Source of the DNA: Holtermannia corniformis
Lineage: Eukaryota; Basidiomycota; Tremellomycetes; Holtermanniales
DNA: 64,000 nt
Reading direction: 5' to 3'
Assembly: GCA_001599935.1 (NCBI GenBank)
Contig: BCIJ01000022.1
Span: 135,798-199,797 of the forward strand
The notes beneath the pieces were generated by a model. It did not search any database. It saw nothing but the letters and a program-made list of their open reading frames with translations, and was not told where the DNA came from. The position numbers were made by a program, and so were the translations under genes. Positions 48,712 through 57,642 of this stretch are shown here, one piece after another. The stretch's first letter is position 1. Each line of letters opens with the position of its first letter.

Positions 48712-50775
48712 CTAAATCTCCTTCCAGCCGCCATCGAACCCCCTGCCGCCCAGACCGGCACTGACGAGGCCGAGCGTGAACACGGTGACATGGGCCGAGA
48801 CGGCGATGCCAAACTATTGCAGTGTGAGCTCGGGTTGACAAGATGGCAGAGAGCAGCGTACCCCTCGATAGAGCTGTTTGACGCCCTGGAACCATCCTCC
48901 CTCTTGTTTCTCTGTCAAGCCTCGTTTGCGCGGCACGGCCGTTTCTTCCGTCGCGATGCGCCAGAGCGCTTCGACGATGCCGACGTACTGCCTCTCTCGG
49001 ACACGGACGACGGTGCGTCCCGCGTCGCCGCGACGGCGCTGGACTTGTAAGCGCCTGCGCACCGTCTCGATCGGGAGCATGATGAGCGAGGTCGCGATCC
49101 CGAATGCGAGATCGCACGATGCGTACGTGAGTGGGGCGAGGTCGGGGCTGATGTGCAGTTTGCGCTCGATCACGAGTGGGATCGAGAGCGTGATGAGCGG
49201 CCGGAGAGTGTGTTCGAGCAGGGTCGGGAGGAGCAGGGATGGGTGCAGGTAGAGACCTGTGAAGCCGCCTTGGTCTTGGAGAGCTTGCTGGAGGAGCGTG
49301 TAGGATGATACGCTCGAGAGGGGGGCAAGGATTAACCGGGTCCGGAGGAGTTCGAGCGGGGATAGCAGGAAGAGCGTCGTGAGATGCGATGCGACTTGGA
49401 GAGCGAGAGGCAGCGCTGGGTCCGGGTGCGATGCGAGGGGCAGGTCGGGCGCACTCAGGATCCCGGCCGTTCCGGGGCTCAACGGCACGAGCGAGGTGAT
49501 GGTGCTGTGCAGGTGTGGTTGCAGGCTTGTGAACAGTAGGTTGTGCACCGTGCTCAACAGCTGGCCTTTCCAGAGCGCTGTCAGGCCCTCGGTGGGGGAA
49601 TAGCGCACGCGGCGGATCATGCCCCAGACGCCGTTGGATCGTGAGACTTCATAGTCGTCCTTGAGAGTCCAGTTGGGGTGTACTGCACGTAGCGAGCGTT
49701 AGCGGGATGTATAGCGGAGCCAGGGGGTAAGTAGTGCGACATTGACGGCGTGGCAGTGACGCGGCGGTCTTTGCCACGCCGCTGGCCCGCACGCTCGCTC
49801 ACCGCCAGCAAGCCACTCACAGTCTGGCAGATAGCCCTCGGCATCCTCTTTGCCAACGACGATGCCCTGCTCGCCCAACGCCTCGGGCGCGCCAAACGTC
49901 GTTGTGGGCGCCGAGAGCCGGTCGGAAAAGTACAAGTCTGCTTCTTCTGGGTTGGAGAGCTATAAGGTGTCGGCGAGGGTCCATGTGTTCACCTAGGGTA
50001 TGGCACTCACCGTCTCGAGCTGGTCCCCATCCTCCTTGACGTCGCCCGCCTCGTCTCGCTGCGGGCCGTGATCGAGCCCTAGAGCGTGCGCGACTCTCCT
50101 CCTGGGCCTGTACTCGACCTGCAGCAGCGTGCCTCCCACTTCAAACGGCTGGCCGATCAACGCGGTAAAGTACTCTGCTGCAAACAGTTTCAAGAACCCA
50201 GAGGCGATGCCGGCCCCGAGACCGAGTTGGAGGTCATCCGACGAAGCGGTTGGGATTGGACGGAATGGCGGCGGCGGGGTCGTGGACGGTGGTGATGAAG
50301 TGCTGTGGGAGGGTTGTGGGACCGAGGGGGGCAGGAAGAGCCAGTCTTCCTGCGGCGGCGCTGGCGGGTGCGTGTGTGAGCTGAGCACGAGGTTGGTCGG
50401 GTCGAGCACGTACTGTAAAGCCCTCGGACGGATGTCGGCCGTGTGGAAGGGAGATCGGATGACATGGTATGCTCTGAGCGGTCCACTGCGAGTCGAGCGT
50501 GCAGCCTGGGACCAGCGGCGGTCAGCTTGAGATCTCAACGTTGCTTTGTTGCCACCGACTGGGAGAGTGGATTGCACGGCCGTTTGGACGGATTTCGGCT
50601 GGAGCTGGCGGCGAGCGGGATGCAGCGTCGCACTGGCTATGGTCCCCACTGGATCGCTGTCGTCGCTGTCGTCTTGTCGAGGATGTATACCGTCTTGCAC
50701 ACTCTGTACTGGTGCTATTGCAGGCGGCGTATCAAACGAGCCACGATAGAACCCCTCGCGCACCTTGCTGTCCAC
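48712..50775 (-). CDS. UGO1: Mitochondrial fusion protein Ugo1 (SLC25A46-like)
   Basis: Ugo1 is a modified carrier-fold protein of the mitochondrial outer membrane that links Fzo1 and Mgm1 during fusion. Features: an N-terminal GPLRAYHVIRSPFHTADIRP leading to ALQYVLDPTNLVL, then an acidic/Pro-rich loop. GIASGFLKLFAAEYFTALIG and QPFEVGGTLLQVEYRPRRR follow. After two introns come EGLTALWKGQLLSTVHNLLF and SPLELLRTRLILAPLS. Near the end are MLPIETVRRRLQVQRR and GWFQGVKQLYRG. The degenerate P-x-[DE]-x2-[RK] repeats (PFEV, PLELLRTR, PIETVRRR) are as expected. The 3' end is firm. The 5' end is not: no in-frame ATG lies in the first exon shown, so the true start is probably in an upstream exon. Confidence 0.75.
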
Positions 50776-51039
50776 GTCACTGCCACGTCATTACCCCGTA
50801 GATCGCGCCATTCTTGTTACTTTGGATTGTCATTCTCTGCTCTCTCTCTGTTCTGCTCTCTGTGCATCTCTCAGAGGGAACACGCGAACACGCTATACGC
50901 AAGCGCGCACAGCCTCTCCATTCACTCCAAGCCGTCTCACACCATCCTCGACCGCAATCACACCATCGAGCCTCACAACGGAGCCTCACAACCCCGTCGG
51001 CACAAAGCCCACCGTCTCTTATCACACCCACTCACCGCC

Positions 51040-54000
51040 ATGACCGACACTCCATCCGGCTACTCGTCCCTCGCGACATCAATCTACAGCTCGGCCTCGC
51101 CCTCGACCTCGTCCGCAGCGGACCGCAAGGCCAACTGGCGGTTCTCAACTCTGTGCGCCGCCGTCGACGGTAAAGATCAGTATGGCGCTTCGTCGACCCC
51201 GATCTACCAGACTGCCACATTCAAGGGCGGACCGGGGCAGGAGTATGATTATACACGGAGTGGGAACCCGACGCGCGGGGGGCTCGGTGAGTTGCGCTTG
51301 GGCGCGCGGTTCAGATTACGGTGGCGATGGTTCATCGGGTCATTTGACGATGCGTGGGCTGGGTGGTGGCACAGTCATGGACGTGCACTGCTTGGCCTCG
51401 ACCGCGACCCAACCTGTTCTGCTCATCGCCACCCTCATGCACACTCGGCTCGACCCGTAGCCCCGCCGCTCATCTCACAATGCTCGCTCGCTAACGCTCA
51501 CTCGCTAGAAACCCACCTCGCACGCCTCTACAGCGCAACCCAAGCCTTTGCCGTCTCAACCGGCATGACCGCGCTCGACCTCATCCTCCGCCTCGTGAAA
51601 CCAAACGAGATTGTGCTAGCAGGCGACGACCTGTACGGCGGCACGAACCGCCTGTTGGGCTACCTCGGCACCCATGGCGGTGTCCAAGTCGTGCATGTGG
51701 ATACGGCGAGGGTTGACCAGGTTGAAAAGGCGTTGAAGCAGGGCGGTGCGCGGTGAGTTGGCTTGCGTCGGTCGGACTTGATCTCCTGGGTGGTTCTCGA
51801 TTCGCTGGGCTGTATCCTGTCTCGCTCGAAGCGGTGTGCTCTGGACTAGGATTGCCTGGTCGGCATCAAGACCCGCGCTTTCTACCGGGCCACACAGCGA
51901 GCGCAGCTAGCGTCTAAGCCGTCCAGCCGCGACCACGCACACGAAGCTAGGAAAGCTGACGGTCCCTATTGGGTATGCTCGTTGGAACGAATCTGAAACT
52001 TGGCAATCGAGCGCGCTCATCAGCCTTGCCAGGCTCGCCCGATCTGTCACCGCGTGCGCGCGCTCGATGAACGATGCGTGTCAGCCTCATCTATAGGTCG
52101 TATCAAGATCAGCGTGTCAGCGTGCGGTCTGTACTGAGTCAATGAGTAGTCTGCTGTCTCCTGGCACGCCCACACGCCAACGCCGTCTGCATGCTCTGCT
52201 TGTCATGGACAAGAGGCAGCTAGTTCCGGCTCGGCCCTTACAGGCCTTTGCTGCTTCAGCGCTACGTCAGGCCCGGGCAAGCTTGTGACACCTGCCTTTT
52301 CGAACGCGCAAAATTGACATGTGACGACTTGCGCTACGCGAGTGAGGCGAACCTAGTATAAGCTTCAAGTTTGTTGTAGCCATTGGTCGCCACTGAGGCG
52401 GCATGGCGCTGCTCCCTAGGGCATTTTCATTTGTTTCATCGTCTTATCACGGTCTAGTCGCTCATCAACAGATCGCCCAGCGGACACGCGCTATCGCTGC
52501 TATCCCACAAAGCGGATGAACGCTTGCGCGAACCGACGTGCGTCGGTGAGACTGCCAAAGCTGCATGCAGCTAGGGGGAGGACATGGCCGCGTCGCGTGG
52601 CGATACGCTGTATGCCCACGGCGCCCACGACGGCTTGAATTTGGGCGTTGCACTCGATCAGTGTGGCTCTCGCCATCAGCATCATTCTGACTGGCTGCTT
52701 CTTGGACCTGTCTGTTTTACGTACAGCGGCTAGGCAGTTTGCCCCCTCGTGCGCTGAGATGGAGCTCAGTCGCTGCTCAGAACTCGGCGACCCAATCGCT
52801 ATGATGGCTCTGGCTCGTCCGCCTATCTCATGCTGACACTTGGGCACAGCATCTCGATGGTTCTTCTCGAGTCGCCGACCAACCCATTGCTCAAGATTGC
52901 TGATATCGAGGGTATCTCCAAGCTCGTCAAGGCAGCGTCACCCGTACGTTGGTGCTCTGCATACAGTCTTATACTGATCAACGCCAGGACGCACTCGTCG
53001 TTGTCGACAACACGATGATGTCGCCATACTTGCAACAACCGCTCAAAATCGGGGCCGACATTGTCTACGACTCGGGCACAAAGTACCTGAGCGGCCACCA
53101 CGACCTCATGGCTGGTATCGTCGCCGTCGCGCGCGAGGATGTCGCCAAGAAACTTGCATTCCTCGTCAACAGTGTCGGCAACGGTCTCGCCCCGTTCGAC
53201 TCTTTCTTGCTCTTGCGTGGGCTCAAGACGCTCTCGCTTCGTCTGGATCGCCAGTCGGCTACCACCAACCTGGTGGCCGCCTACCTTGACGCACTCAAGT
53301 TCAAGGTCAACTTTCCGGGCTTGCCGCAGCACCCTGCGCGGGACATCCACTGGAAGCAGGCGACGGGTGCTGGGGCCGTGCTCAGCTTTGAGACGGGCGA
53401 CAAGGAGCTCAGCGAGCGGATCGTTGGCGGGACCCGGCTCTGGGGGATCAGTGTCAGCTTTGGCGCTGTCAACAGTTTGATCAGCATGCCCTGCCTCATG
53501 TCGTGAGTTAGTCGGTAGTTGCGACCATAAGCTGACCCCTGCAGCCACGCTTCCATCTCGGCCGCCGTCCGGGCCGAGCGTGGTCTGCCAGAGAATCTCA
53601 TCCGACTATGCGTAGGTATCGAGGACCCGCGCGACCTGATCGACGACCTCGAGCACGCTCTCGTCGCTGCCGGTGCCATCACCCCCAAGATTGACGGCTA
53701 CATCTCACCGACTGTCCCTCTTGAGCAGCTGTACGACACCGACCCGCAACTCTGGGTCCTCGAACGCGCAAACGGGTTCGAGCGGTACAACCTTTCTGCC
53801 GCTGCGATCGAGCACCGACTGCAACAAGGGTCTGGCGTCGGCACCGAATCCAACGTCAATGAAAACGACACCGGCGACATCCTCGTCTCGGCGCCAGGCA
53901 AGGTCATTCTCTTTGGAGAGCACGCGGTCGTGCATGGGGTGGTGCGTGATTAATCTATCCTTCTGCTGGGTTGTACATCTAGCGAGATGAGAACAGTGCC

Positions 54001-55476
54001 AATAACAATGCTTTTCCCGCTTCCCTCTCCACCTCGATCGCGCACGACAGACTGCCATTGCCGCCGCTGTCAACCTCCGATGCTACGGCTTGCTTTCGAG
54101 TCGCGCCGACGCCGTCGTCGGCTTGGAGTTGGGCGATATCGGGTTCGAAGGCGAATGGGCGATCGACGCGTTGCCGTGGGACAAGGTGCCAAAGGGCGAG
54201 GACGCAACGGGGACCGAGCTGCACCCACCACTGATCAAGGCGCTCGAAGCGCTTGTGATTGATCATGCGCTCGCGCCGGAGCCTGCCAAGGACGAGAAGC
54301 GCAGCAAGGTCGCAGCGATCGCGTTCTTGTACCTGTACATGCTCATCGCCGGTACCAACGCCCAAGCGTCAGTGTCTACCGAGATTGTATACACGAGGCT
54401 GATGATCCCAGGCCCGGCGTCACGTTTGCTGCCCGGTCAGCGCTGCCGATCGGCGCCGGTCTCGGTTCCTCGGCTTCGTTTTCGACGTGTATTGCCGCCT
54501 CGTTGCTCGCCAAGCACGTCAAGGTCAACACGGACGCTGCCAGCGTGTCTCTGGCGCACACCGACGTGGTCGATGCCCACGCCTTCCTCGCGGAAAAGGT
54601 CATGCACGGTAACCCGAGCGGGATCGATAATGCCGTCGCTGTGCGCGGCGGTGCCGTTGTCTTTGCGAGGGCTATGGCTGGCAAGCAGGGCAAACTTGAG
54701 AGTGTGACGGGGTGAGTTCGCTGCGTACATCTGCCAACGCTTACGACTGACGCGCATCAGGTTCAAGTCGATTCGCCTGCTGTTGACCGACTCGCGGATC
54801 CCTCGCGACACCAAAACGCTGGTCGCTGGCGTGACGGCGCTCAAGCTCGCAGAGCCAGAGCTCGTCGATGGCATCTTGCAGTCTATCCAGGATATCTCGG
54901 ACCACGTGCATGGCTCGTTGGCGGATGTGTCGTTGGAGCGTACCGAGCTGATCACGCGGTTGGAGGTCGGTTAAGCGCATAGTGATCTCAGGGAATGATC
55001 TGACAGCCACAGCGCATGATCGACGAGAACCACGGTCACCTCGTCTCGCTTGGGGTCTCGCACCCTGCTCTCGAGGCGATCCGCGCAAAGACTGCGCTTG
55101 ATCCGTTCGGCCTCAAGACCAAGCTGACGGGTGCGGGTGGCGGCGGTTGCGCCGTGACGTTGATTCCGGATGGTGCGTGATGATGGTTGCGAGACGGAGA
55201 GCACACTGACGCAACGTAGATTTCTCCGAGGAATCGCTTCAGGTGCTGATCGCTGACCTGACGCGGTCAGGCTACCACCCCTACCTTACATCCGTCGGTG
55301 GTGCTGGTCTCGGAATCCACCGTCCACCCCTGCAGAACCCGAACGAGAGCGAGGACATTCAAGCTGAAGGCGGCGACGAGACGTTCCACGTCTCGTTGCG
55401 CATGGGCTTTGCTTCTGTACCCAAGGAGCGCCTGGAAGAGTGGGCGACCAGCCGCAGCGGCTGGGTGTACACATAG
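51040..55476 (+). CDS. Cystathionine beta-lyase - mevalonate kinase fusion protein
   Basis: Ten exons (247, 244, 94, 515, 397, 317, 300, 205, 160 and 257 nt) sum to 2736 nt, or 911 residues, in one frame. Residues 1 to about 416 are a complete fungal cystathionine beta-lyase (PLP enzyme, cystathionine to homocysteine). Motifs include DQYGASSTPIYQTATFKGG, YDYTRSGNPTR, VSTGMTALDLILRL, PLP Lys227 in DSGTKYLSGHHDLMAG, and RLWGISVSFGAVNSLISMPC. A linker of about 60 residues (PLEQLYDTDPQLWVLERANG ...) carries no stop and no Met. Residues about 477-911 are a complete mevalonate kinase (GHMP): SAPGKVILFGEHAVVHG, LPIGAGLGSSASFS, HGNPSGIDNAVAVRGG and KLTGAGGGGCAVTLI. One exon (53545-53941) encodes the end of the lyase, the linker and the start of the kinase. 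Introns include 1097 nt (51753-52849) and 222 nt (51287-51508, in frame and stop-free). The frame is also open upstream of 51040, into UGO1 antisense, so a longer N-terminus is formally possible. Confidence 0.85.
51753..52849 (+). other. Unusually long intron (1097 nt) in the lyase part of the fusion gene
   Basis: Donor GCGCG|GTGAGTTGG (51752/51753), branch GCTGACAC, acceptor TGGGCACAG|CATC (52849/52850). Splicing joins EKALKQGGAR to ISMVLLESPTNPLLKI in phase 2, as the lyase family requires. No recognisable coding sequence or terminal repeat was found inside. Confidence 0.82.
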
Positions 55477-55616
55477 CCTGCTGCCCGGTTGCCTCATCTA
55501 CGATTGTATGGATATGTAATGACGTGTTGCGTGCATCACGTTTGCCACCAAGCTTTCAGAAAGTTGACGCACGCTCGTTGTCGACTAGACATTCTCCAAG
55601 ACTGCAACCGCGCGAG

Positions 55617-57642
55617 ATGGAGTACACGCCAGACGAGTATGGCCAGCAGAGCTTCATCCTCTGCGCAGACTGTGGGACAGTCATCTCGTCGGCCAACGGC
55701 GCTGGGCTGTGTGAGTCGCCTGGTGTAGATGATCGCTGCGGCTGATCGACTGTGCAGGCGTCGGCTGTCTGAGAAATTCGTTAGTATAGTAAAATATTGA
55801 TAGTGACGATTGCTTACACGCACAGCGTCGATATCACCGAGGGGATCCCGAAAGAGTCGTCGATCCAGTTCTGTCGAGGTCAGTCAGCACTGAACACTTG
55901 TCGGTGCGTTCAGCTGAGATTCGTAGGGTGTGAGCGCTTCCTGTCGCCGCCTACAAACTGGGTCAACTGTCAACCCGAGTCTCGCGAGCTGCTCGGTAAG
56001 CACGCACACGCGTCGGCACCGTAGCTCACGTTGGTAGCCATCTGCTTGAAGAAGCTCGCCCGTCCCCTCCTCAAAGTCCGCTTGATCGACGCCTCGTTCA
56101 TCTGGACGGAACCTCACTCGAAGCGGATCAAAGTCAAGCTCACGATTCAGAAGGAGGTCTTGGCGAACACGGTGCTGCAGCAGACCTTTGTCTTGACGCT
56201 CGTTGTCCAAGGCGCTCAATGCCCAAGCTGCACAAAGCTCGCCGCCAAGAACACATGGAAGGCGACGGTTCAGGTTCGGCAAAAGGTGACCCACAAGCGC
56301 ACATTCTTGTTCCTCGAGCAGTTGATTCTCAAGCACAATGCTCACAAGTGGGTTGGCTCACTTTGCAGGACGACAGCTGACCTTTGTCAGGGACACGACC
56401 AGCATCAGTGAGAAGCGCGACGGCTTGGACTTTTTCTATGCCGAGCGGAATCAAGCGATCAAAATGGTCGAGTTCTTGGCTGGTATCGTCCCTGTCCGGT
56501 ACGTATCGACTCGACGCAAAACTCTTGCTGAGCACCTCGCAGGTCAAAGGGCTCCGAGCAACTCATCTCGTCCGATTCGCACAACGGCACGTCGAGCTAC
56601 AAGTTTACCTACTCGGTAGAGATTGTCCCGATCTGTAAAGACGACTTGGTGGTTGTGCCCCGTGCACTCGCTCGCGCCTGGGGCAACATCACGTACGTCA
56701 ACAGACATCAGGCAAATCGCTGACCCGCACAGCCCTTTGACCATCTGCTCGAGGATCGGCAACTCGATGCACTTGCTCGACCCCATGTCCCTGCAGCAGG
56801 CCGACGTGACGTCTTCAGTGTACTGGCGCAGCCCGTTCGACCCTCTCGCAAGCGTCTCTGACCTCGTCGAGTTCATCATCCTCGACGTTGAGCCCTCAGG
56901 TCCCACGCGCGGCAAATTCGTGCTGGCCGATGCACAGGTCACGCGCTCTACGACGTCGGGTGGCACAATGATGGACGAGGACGGAGCCGGCAGCGACGGC
57001 ATCTACCACACTCGCACCCATCTCGGTGCTATTCTCCAACCGGGCGACACGGTCCTCGGGTACCACCTTACAAAGTCCAACTTCAACAACGAAGACTTTG
57101 AGGCGCTCGACCAGGCGCGGATCCCGGACGTCATCCTCGTGAAAAAGACGTACCCGAACCGGAGGAAGAAGGCCAAGCCGAGGAACTGGAAGTTGCGATC
57201 GATTGCCAAGGAGGCAGAGGACACGGCGGGCATGACGGACCCAACGCAGCTTGGGCGCGGTGCGCTCGGTCGTCGTGGTGGTGTCGATCAGCAAAAGGTC
57301 GAGCGCGACTACGAGCTCTTCCTGCGCGATCTCGAAGAGGACAAGGAGATGCGGGCGGCGATCAACCTGTACCGAGCGCCTACGGACGCCACTATGGCGA
57401 CTGGGAACGCGGGCTCAGGCATGAAGGGCGGCAAGCGGAGGGGAGCGAACAAGATGGACGTCGAAGGCGGTGCTGGCGCCGACTCGGACTCGGACATGGA
57501 CACGGACGGCGACGCCGACGAGAGTGACGCCGAGACCGAAGAGGACTTTCCCAACGTCGAGATGGACGAGCTGCTCGAGCACATGGAGGAGCTCGAGATC
57601 CAGCCCGAGACGTACGTCGACCCGGACGACGAAGAGCTTTGA
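55617..57642 (+). CDS. NMD3: 60S ribosomal export adaptor Nmd3
   Basis: Nmd3 binds the nascent 60S subunit and recruits Crm1 for nuclear export. The N-terminal zinc-binding Cys pairs are built across two introns: ILCADCGTVI, LCVGCLRNSVDITEGIP, and then FCRGCERFLSPPTNW. The conserved core follows: LLKVRLIDASFIWTEPHSKR, KVKLTIQKEVLANTVLQQTF, CPSCTKLAAKNTWKATVQVR, FFYAERNQAIKMVEFLAGIV, then FTYSVEIVPICKDDLVVVP. The C-terminus is acidic (DSDSDMDTDGDADESD; EMDELLEHMEELEIQ), resembling the region carrying the nuclear export signal. Seven introns of about 40-50 nt; about 570 residues. Its stop is only 32 bp from that of the convergent mitochondrial gene, so the 3' UTRs must overlap. Confidence 0.9.

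Follow-up and report, generated by a model that had tools for sequence, protein, structure and literature searches.

The 64,000-nucleotide stretch of contig BCIJ01000022.1 of Holtermannia corniformis that was analysed here (the window) carries a gene at 51040–55476 (+) in which cystathionine beta-lyase (CBL) is joined in frame to mevalonate kinase (MVK). The splice model, rebuilt from GT and AG sites, links ten exons into 2736 nucleotides, which correspond to 911 codons and a stop codon with zero internal stops. All nine introns start with GT and end with AG, and eight of them display a CTRAY match that starts 13–18 nucleotides upstream of the intron 3' end, the exception being intron 5 (53942–54050). 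Exon 1 (51040–51286) provides the start codon, an N-terminal extension and the beginning of the CBL domain (PF01053). The lyase domain extends through exon 2 (51509–51752) and exon 3 (52850–52943), both of which are matched by ascomycete CBL, and through exon 4 (52988–53502), where the alignment places Lys227 within the motif YDSGTKY. Exon 5 (53545–53941) is the junction exon and its reading is shared with the relatives described below. It carries the lyase C-terminus (RLCVGIEDPRDLIDDLEHAL), the spacer and the start of the kinase (SAPGKVILFGEHAVVHGV) without any change of frame. No in-frame ATG is present in this exon, and the closest in-frame stop upstream is at 53528, within intron 4. The MVK half continues in exon 6 (54051–54367), recognised by its match to solved MVK, in exon 7 (54412–54711), which holds the GHMP motif GAGLGSSAS and NPSGIDN according to Pfam and the alignment, and in exon 8 (54761–54965), where the alignment locates PRDTK. 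Exon 9 (55013–55172) contains the C-terminal GHMP domain of MVK identified by Pfam (KLTGAGGGGC), while exon 10 (55220–55476) comprises the end of the kinase, a C-terminal tail and the stop codon. Where exon 6 meets exon 7 and exon 8 meets exon 9, in-frame alternative splice sites exist that would alter only a few residues, away from the fusion point. An earlier note on this DNA had described ten consistently spliced exons with 911 codons and a lyase reading into the kinase with neither stop nor Met at the junction, and both observations are confirmed by the splice model and by the single frame of exon 5.

The same architecture is found in the closest relatives of the protein. A full-length protein search scored 7993 candidates and returned 1069 proteins at E ≤ 0.001, the best 120 of which were listed. 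These relatives have 878–962 residues and 52–64% identity, and their alignments extend over 91–100% of the fusion. Since this holds for all 120 listed relatives, the fusion is far beyond chance. Precomputed annotation assigns PF01053 and a GHMP domain to 119 of the 120, and the exception, P0001, retains the MVK residues that were checked. The search for proteins bearing both domains that the earlier note had proposed is thus answered by nearly every listed relative. Organism names accompany 112 of the listed proteins, and by recognition of these names we take all 112 to be basidiomycetes. The groups, presumably, include Tremellomycetes, Agaricomycetes, Dacrymycetes, Microbotryomycetes and Bartheletia. 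Ustilaginomycotina, rusts and Wallemiomycotina were not recognised by name among the best 120 of the 1069 proteins, from which no claim for these groups follows. Many of the proteins P0001–P0120 are labelled only as cystathionine beta-lyase and a few only as mevalonate kinase, the second enzyme being hidden by the label.

Searches with each half separately point in the same direction. The MVK half gave 3969 matches, the best 120 of which were listed and compared with the fused proteins and with a panel of 16 separate ones; 45 of these 120 are nearer to the fused than to the separate proteins. The ATP loop is visible in 25 of the 45 and is preceded by the lyase C-terminus in 22, while the other three (P0127, P0140 and P0169) begin within the spacer. 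P0140, initially taken for a separate kinase starting from a Met of its own, was rejected as such, its head being similar to the spacer of P0141. The CBL half gave 7176 matches, the best 120 of which were listed, and the first 16 of these, less a Verticillium row, constitute 15 basidiomycete-like rows of lyase length. The spacer and the start of MVK are present in 13 of the 15, several of which end just past VVHGV, the position of the next intron in the window, and the other two, P0247 and P0255, end at SLISMPCLMS, which corresponds to the end of exon 4 in the window. A free-standing lyase or kinase was not found among the basidiomycete-like rows, either in the best 120 of 3969 MVK matches or at the top of the best 120 of 7176 CBL matches. 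In ascomycete and Mucoromycota rows, CBL and MVK are two separate proteins.

The identity of the two halves is defined by domain, family and structural matches. Pfam places PF01053 at residues 45–406, PF00288 at 602–684 and PF08544 at 769–831. The CBL half scores 514.9 bits against the NCBIfam model of eukaryotic CBL, TIGR01329, and thus passes its cut-off of 487.5. By sequence, the closest solved relative of the CBL half is Arabidopsis CBL (1ibj, E 3.4e-109) and that of the MVK half is mammalian MVK (1kvk, E 1.3e-63). For the Kwoniella relative P0001, an AlphaFold2 model computed with 82 sequences displays a mean predicted local distance difference test score (pLDDT) of 79.3 and a predicted template modelling score (pTM) of 0.52. 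A fold search of this model against the PDB ranks CBL (1ibj) first and MVK (2r3v) second, while its pTM leaves the relative placement of the CBL and MVK domains undefined.

Both putative active sites are fully preserved at the residues inspected. All 121 aligned fused proteins share the same residue at twelve catalytic or motif positions, and this invariance suggests that both active sites have been kept working. Five of them, Lys227, Tyr125, Arg73, Asp202 and Arg387, belong to the CBL half; from knowledge of the family we take Lys227 to be the lysine that binds pyridoxal phosphate (PLP) and the remaining four to be PLP-site residues. Similarly, the MVK half retains Lys486, His493, Ser624, Glu666, Asp677, Thr722 and Gly813, within or around the motifs SAPGK, GLGSS and GAGGGG, and these are presumed, again from family knowledge, to be motif or catalytic residues of MVK.

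The spacer between the two domains is far less constrained. In the 121 aligned rows the mean frequency of the majority residue is 0.26 in the spacer, in contrast to 0.83 in CBL and 0.70 in MVK. Measured from GIED to SAPGK, the spacer spans 57–128 residues in 119 of the 121 proteins, two failing to fit the pattern, and 24 of the 121 have a Met inside it. Its first part is similar, by eye, to the C-terminal tail of several of ten separate CBLs. A further segment containing an invariant Trp is present in 26 of the 121 fused proteins, that of the window included (residues about 420–464). In the P0001 model, residues 425–434 and 436–444 of this insertion region are helical, with a pLDDT of 85–94 in the block, and are followed by residues 453–473 at a pLDDT below 50. 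The spacer looks like an ancestral lyase tail with added residues; its length varies, and part of it is disordered.

The genome was searched for other MVK and CBL candidates in six frames and exon by exon. Four GHMP_N loci lie above the cut-off, the fusion gene and three others. Against specific models, the three others score 169.1 bits for homoserine kinase (thrB, cut-off 168.25), 267.7 bits for diphosphomevalonate decarboxylase (MVD, cut-off 171.35) and, in the case of a fragment, 127.4 bits for phosphomevalonate kinase (ERG8, cut-off 376.95). The MVK equivalog model TIGR00549 scores highest at the fusion locus, and all three matches of a Komagataella MVK query fall within it. To the question raised in the earlier note, whether the genome holds a separate MVK, the answer is that a second one was not found by this exon-wise search, which a very intron-rich copy could escape. 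An ascomycete CBL query displays 64% identity at the fusion locus and 45% at the next best, on C4, where gamma-synthase models reach 197.5 bits against 113.7 bits for CBL. The PF01053 fragments at C1:1769 and on C17 best fit homocysteine synthase and BesB/gamma-synthase-like models, and a weak PF01053 match at C1:403736 (24.8 bits, below the cut-off) is assigned to no family. The fusion thus appears to be the only clear cystathionine beta-lyase found in the genome.

Quick maximum-likelihood trees, unrooted, were computed for each half from chosen rows, 25 of them fused (24 of the 120 listed relatives and that of the window) and 20 separate. In the MVK tree as well as in the CBL tree, the fused rows lie on one side of a single branch, with 99% support in the Shimodaira–Hasegawa-like approximate likelihood ratio test (SH-aLRT). 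Both trees fit a single old fusion event, and one origin early in the history of Basidiomycota is probable.

Intron 1 (51287–51508) has 222 nucleotides. Intron 2 (51753–52849) is unusually long, with 1097 nucleotides against 42–222 for the eight other introns of the gene. A second copy of intron 2 was not found elsewhere in the genome, and an Rfam scan of 50500–56000 at gathering thresholds, intron 2 included, gave no match. The presumed 5' leader contains 1.9 repeats of a 13-nucleotide unit at 50968–50992. Four crude motif patterns were sought in the upstream region 50701–51039 and none was found, which is not evidence of an absence of control. On the opposite strand upstream lies a 264-codon open frame, 49993–50787 (-), with no Pfam match at E ≤ 0.01. 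The downstream gene fits NMD3, one of its open frames at 56025–56411 (+) matching PF04981 (E 9.1e-34), and its start codon is, by eye, probably near 55617.

The pairing of these enzymes is already known, having been published in 2012, and is widely shared among basidiomycetes; the statement of the earlier note that no such fusion had been described does not hold against PMC3342255, PMC3468542, PMC3720577 and PMC4129116. The excerpts of PMC3342255 (2012) report a metC-MVK fusion of about 886 residues on average in 12 basidiomycetes, where it is the only MVK homologue, with a 16-residue insertion inside MVK in seven species. Those of PMC3468542 (2012), covering 81 fungal genomes, describe STR3 orthologues that end in a mevalonate kinase region in all the basidiomycetes examined except Postia, no separate MVK in basidiomycetes, and separate, unclustered CBL and MVK genes in ascomycetes; the authors left the significance of the additional kinase region to be determined. 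A fused unigene was reported in Pleurocybella mycelia (PMC3720577, 2013) and a fusion of 918 residues in Lignosus (PMC4129116, 2014), again according to the excerpts. Part of PMC7396576 states that in Ustilago MVK was the sole pathway enzyme that KEGG failed to predict, a failure for which the fusion may account.

The gene is very probably the ordinary basidiomycete CBL-MVK (metC-MVK) fusion, one chain with two independent enzymes and a single early origin. One mRNA would be translated into one 911-residue chain, in which the N-terminal PLP domain is predicted to split cystathionine to give homocysteine and the C-terminal GHMP domain to phosphorylate mevalonate. The two active sites most likely work independently, and from the conservation of the residues described above both activities appear to be real. 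The fusion would have been made once and then retained, since the genome search turned up no further gene for CBL or MVK; in that case a ratchet, and not selection for coordination, would explain its retention. Several observations weigh against this assignment. TIGR00549 reaches at best 62 bits when scored exon by exon, against a whole-protein cut-off of 163.05, it is absent from the best 25 of the 49 families matched by the whole 911-residue protein, and it also gives a weak signal at the phosphomevalonate kinase (31 bits) and homoserine kinase (18.5 bits) loci. Twenty of the 45 fused-like MVK matches start within the kinase and are therefore undecided as to fusion. The trees are quick and unrooted with hand-chosen rows, and in the CBL tree a long branch (P0346), about which the tool gave a warning, adjoins the fused group. 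Exceptions are also on record, namely L. bicolor according to PMC3342255 and Postia placenta according to PMC3468542. Finally, a biochemical or activity test of either half was not found in the open-access literature searched, as far as its accessible text extends.

Three other explanations were weighed. That lyase and kinase are neighbouring, separately transcribed genes that share a frame and have been misread as one is scarcely credible: although the halves are separate proteins in ascomycete and Mucoromycota rows and a spacer Met occurs in 24 of the 121 fused proteins, no stop separates the domains, exon 5 has no in-frame ATG and is preceded by the in-frame stop in intron 4, the junction is kept in all 120 listed relatives of the 1069, and the excerpts of PMC3720577 report a fused unigene. 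This two-gene reading was rejected on the missing stop, the lack of an in-frame ATG in exon 5 and the conserved junction. It is also improbable that a single translated chain is later cut, or the transcript alternatively spliced, into separate enzymes. The varying length of the spacer (57–128 residues in 119 of 121 rows) and the low pLDDT at 453–473 in the model of the relative would suit such processing, but protein-level evidence for it was not found in the accessible parts of the literature searched, and no search aimed at cleavage motifs was made.

A selected coupling, in which a methionine-supply enzyme is placed under sterol control or the lyase tetramer gathers the kinase, so that the supply of homocysteine and S-adenosylmethionine (SAM) is matched to sterol demand, is unlikely. 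The earlier note had suggested that the fusion may coordinate methionine and SAM supply with ergosterol synthesis. Cystathionine beta-lyase is presumed here to form a tetramer. The single reading frame implies joint, obligate 1:1 expression of lyase and kinase, and the fusion is retained across the listed Agaricomycotina and Pucciniomycotina, groups that we assign by recognising names; both points favour coupling. Against it, conservation is far lower in the spacer than in CBL or MVK, and the pTM of 0.52 defines no domain arrangement. Channelling between CBL and MVK is likewise unlikely because, to our knowledge, the two reactions share no substrate, product or intermediate. The most concrete lead in favour of coupling is regulatory, as the excerpts of PMC9810662 describe the Ganoderma lingzhi mevalonate kinase g3941 as an SREBP target that is raised on SREBP overexpression. 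If g3941 is the fusion, as the sole MVK of G. lucidum is said to be in the excerpts of PMC3342255, sterol control would extend to the lyase. The fuller version, in which SREBP-driven transcription of the kinase obligatorily raises the lyase and ties homocysteine and SAM to sterol demand while a lineage-specific spacer docks the lyase tetramer to the kinase, is similarly doubtful.

The reading of the gene as an ordinary metC-MVK fusion has two practical consequences. Proteins of about 900 residues that are named only cystathionine beta-lyase make the basidiomycete MVK easy to miss in annotation, and in isoprenoid pathway engineering in basidiomycetes interference with one half can also affect the other. 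Compared with the metC-MVK proteins of basidiomycetes in the excerpts of PMC3342255, PMC4129116 and PMC3720577, the Holtermannia protein displays the same order, CBL followed by MVK, and the same size of about 900 residues. Likewise, the genome search yielded no second MVK, and no gene other than the fusion matched CBL well. Nothing essential differs; the accessible parts of those accounts do not mention the insertion that 26 of the 121 rows carry in the spacer. The architecture is identical to that of the basidiomycete STR3 orthologues in the excerpts of PMC3468542. With Str3 and Erg12 of ascomycetes and Mucoromycota the protein shares its domains, but there they form two proteins, and both trees set the fused rows apart from these.

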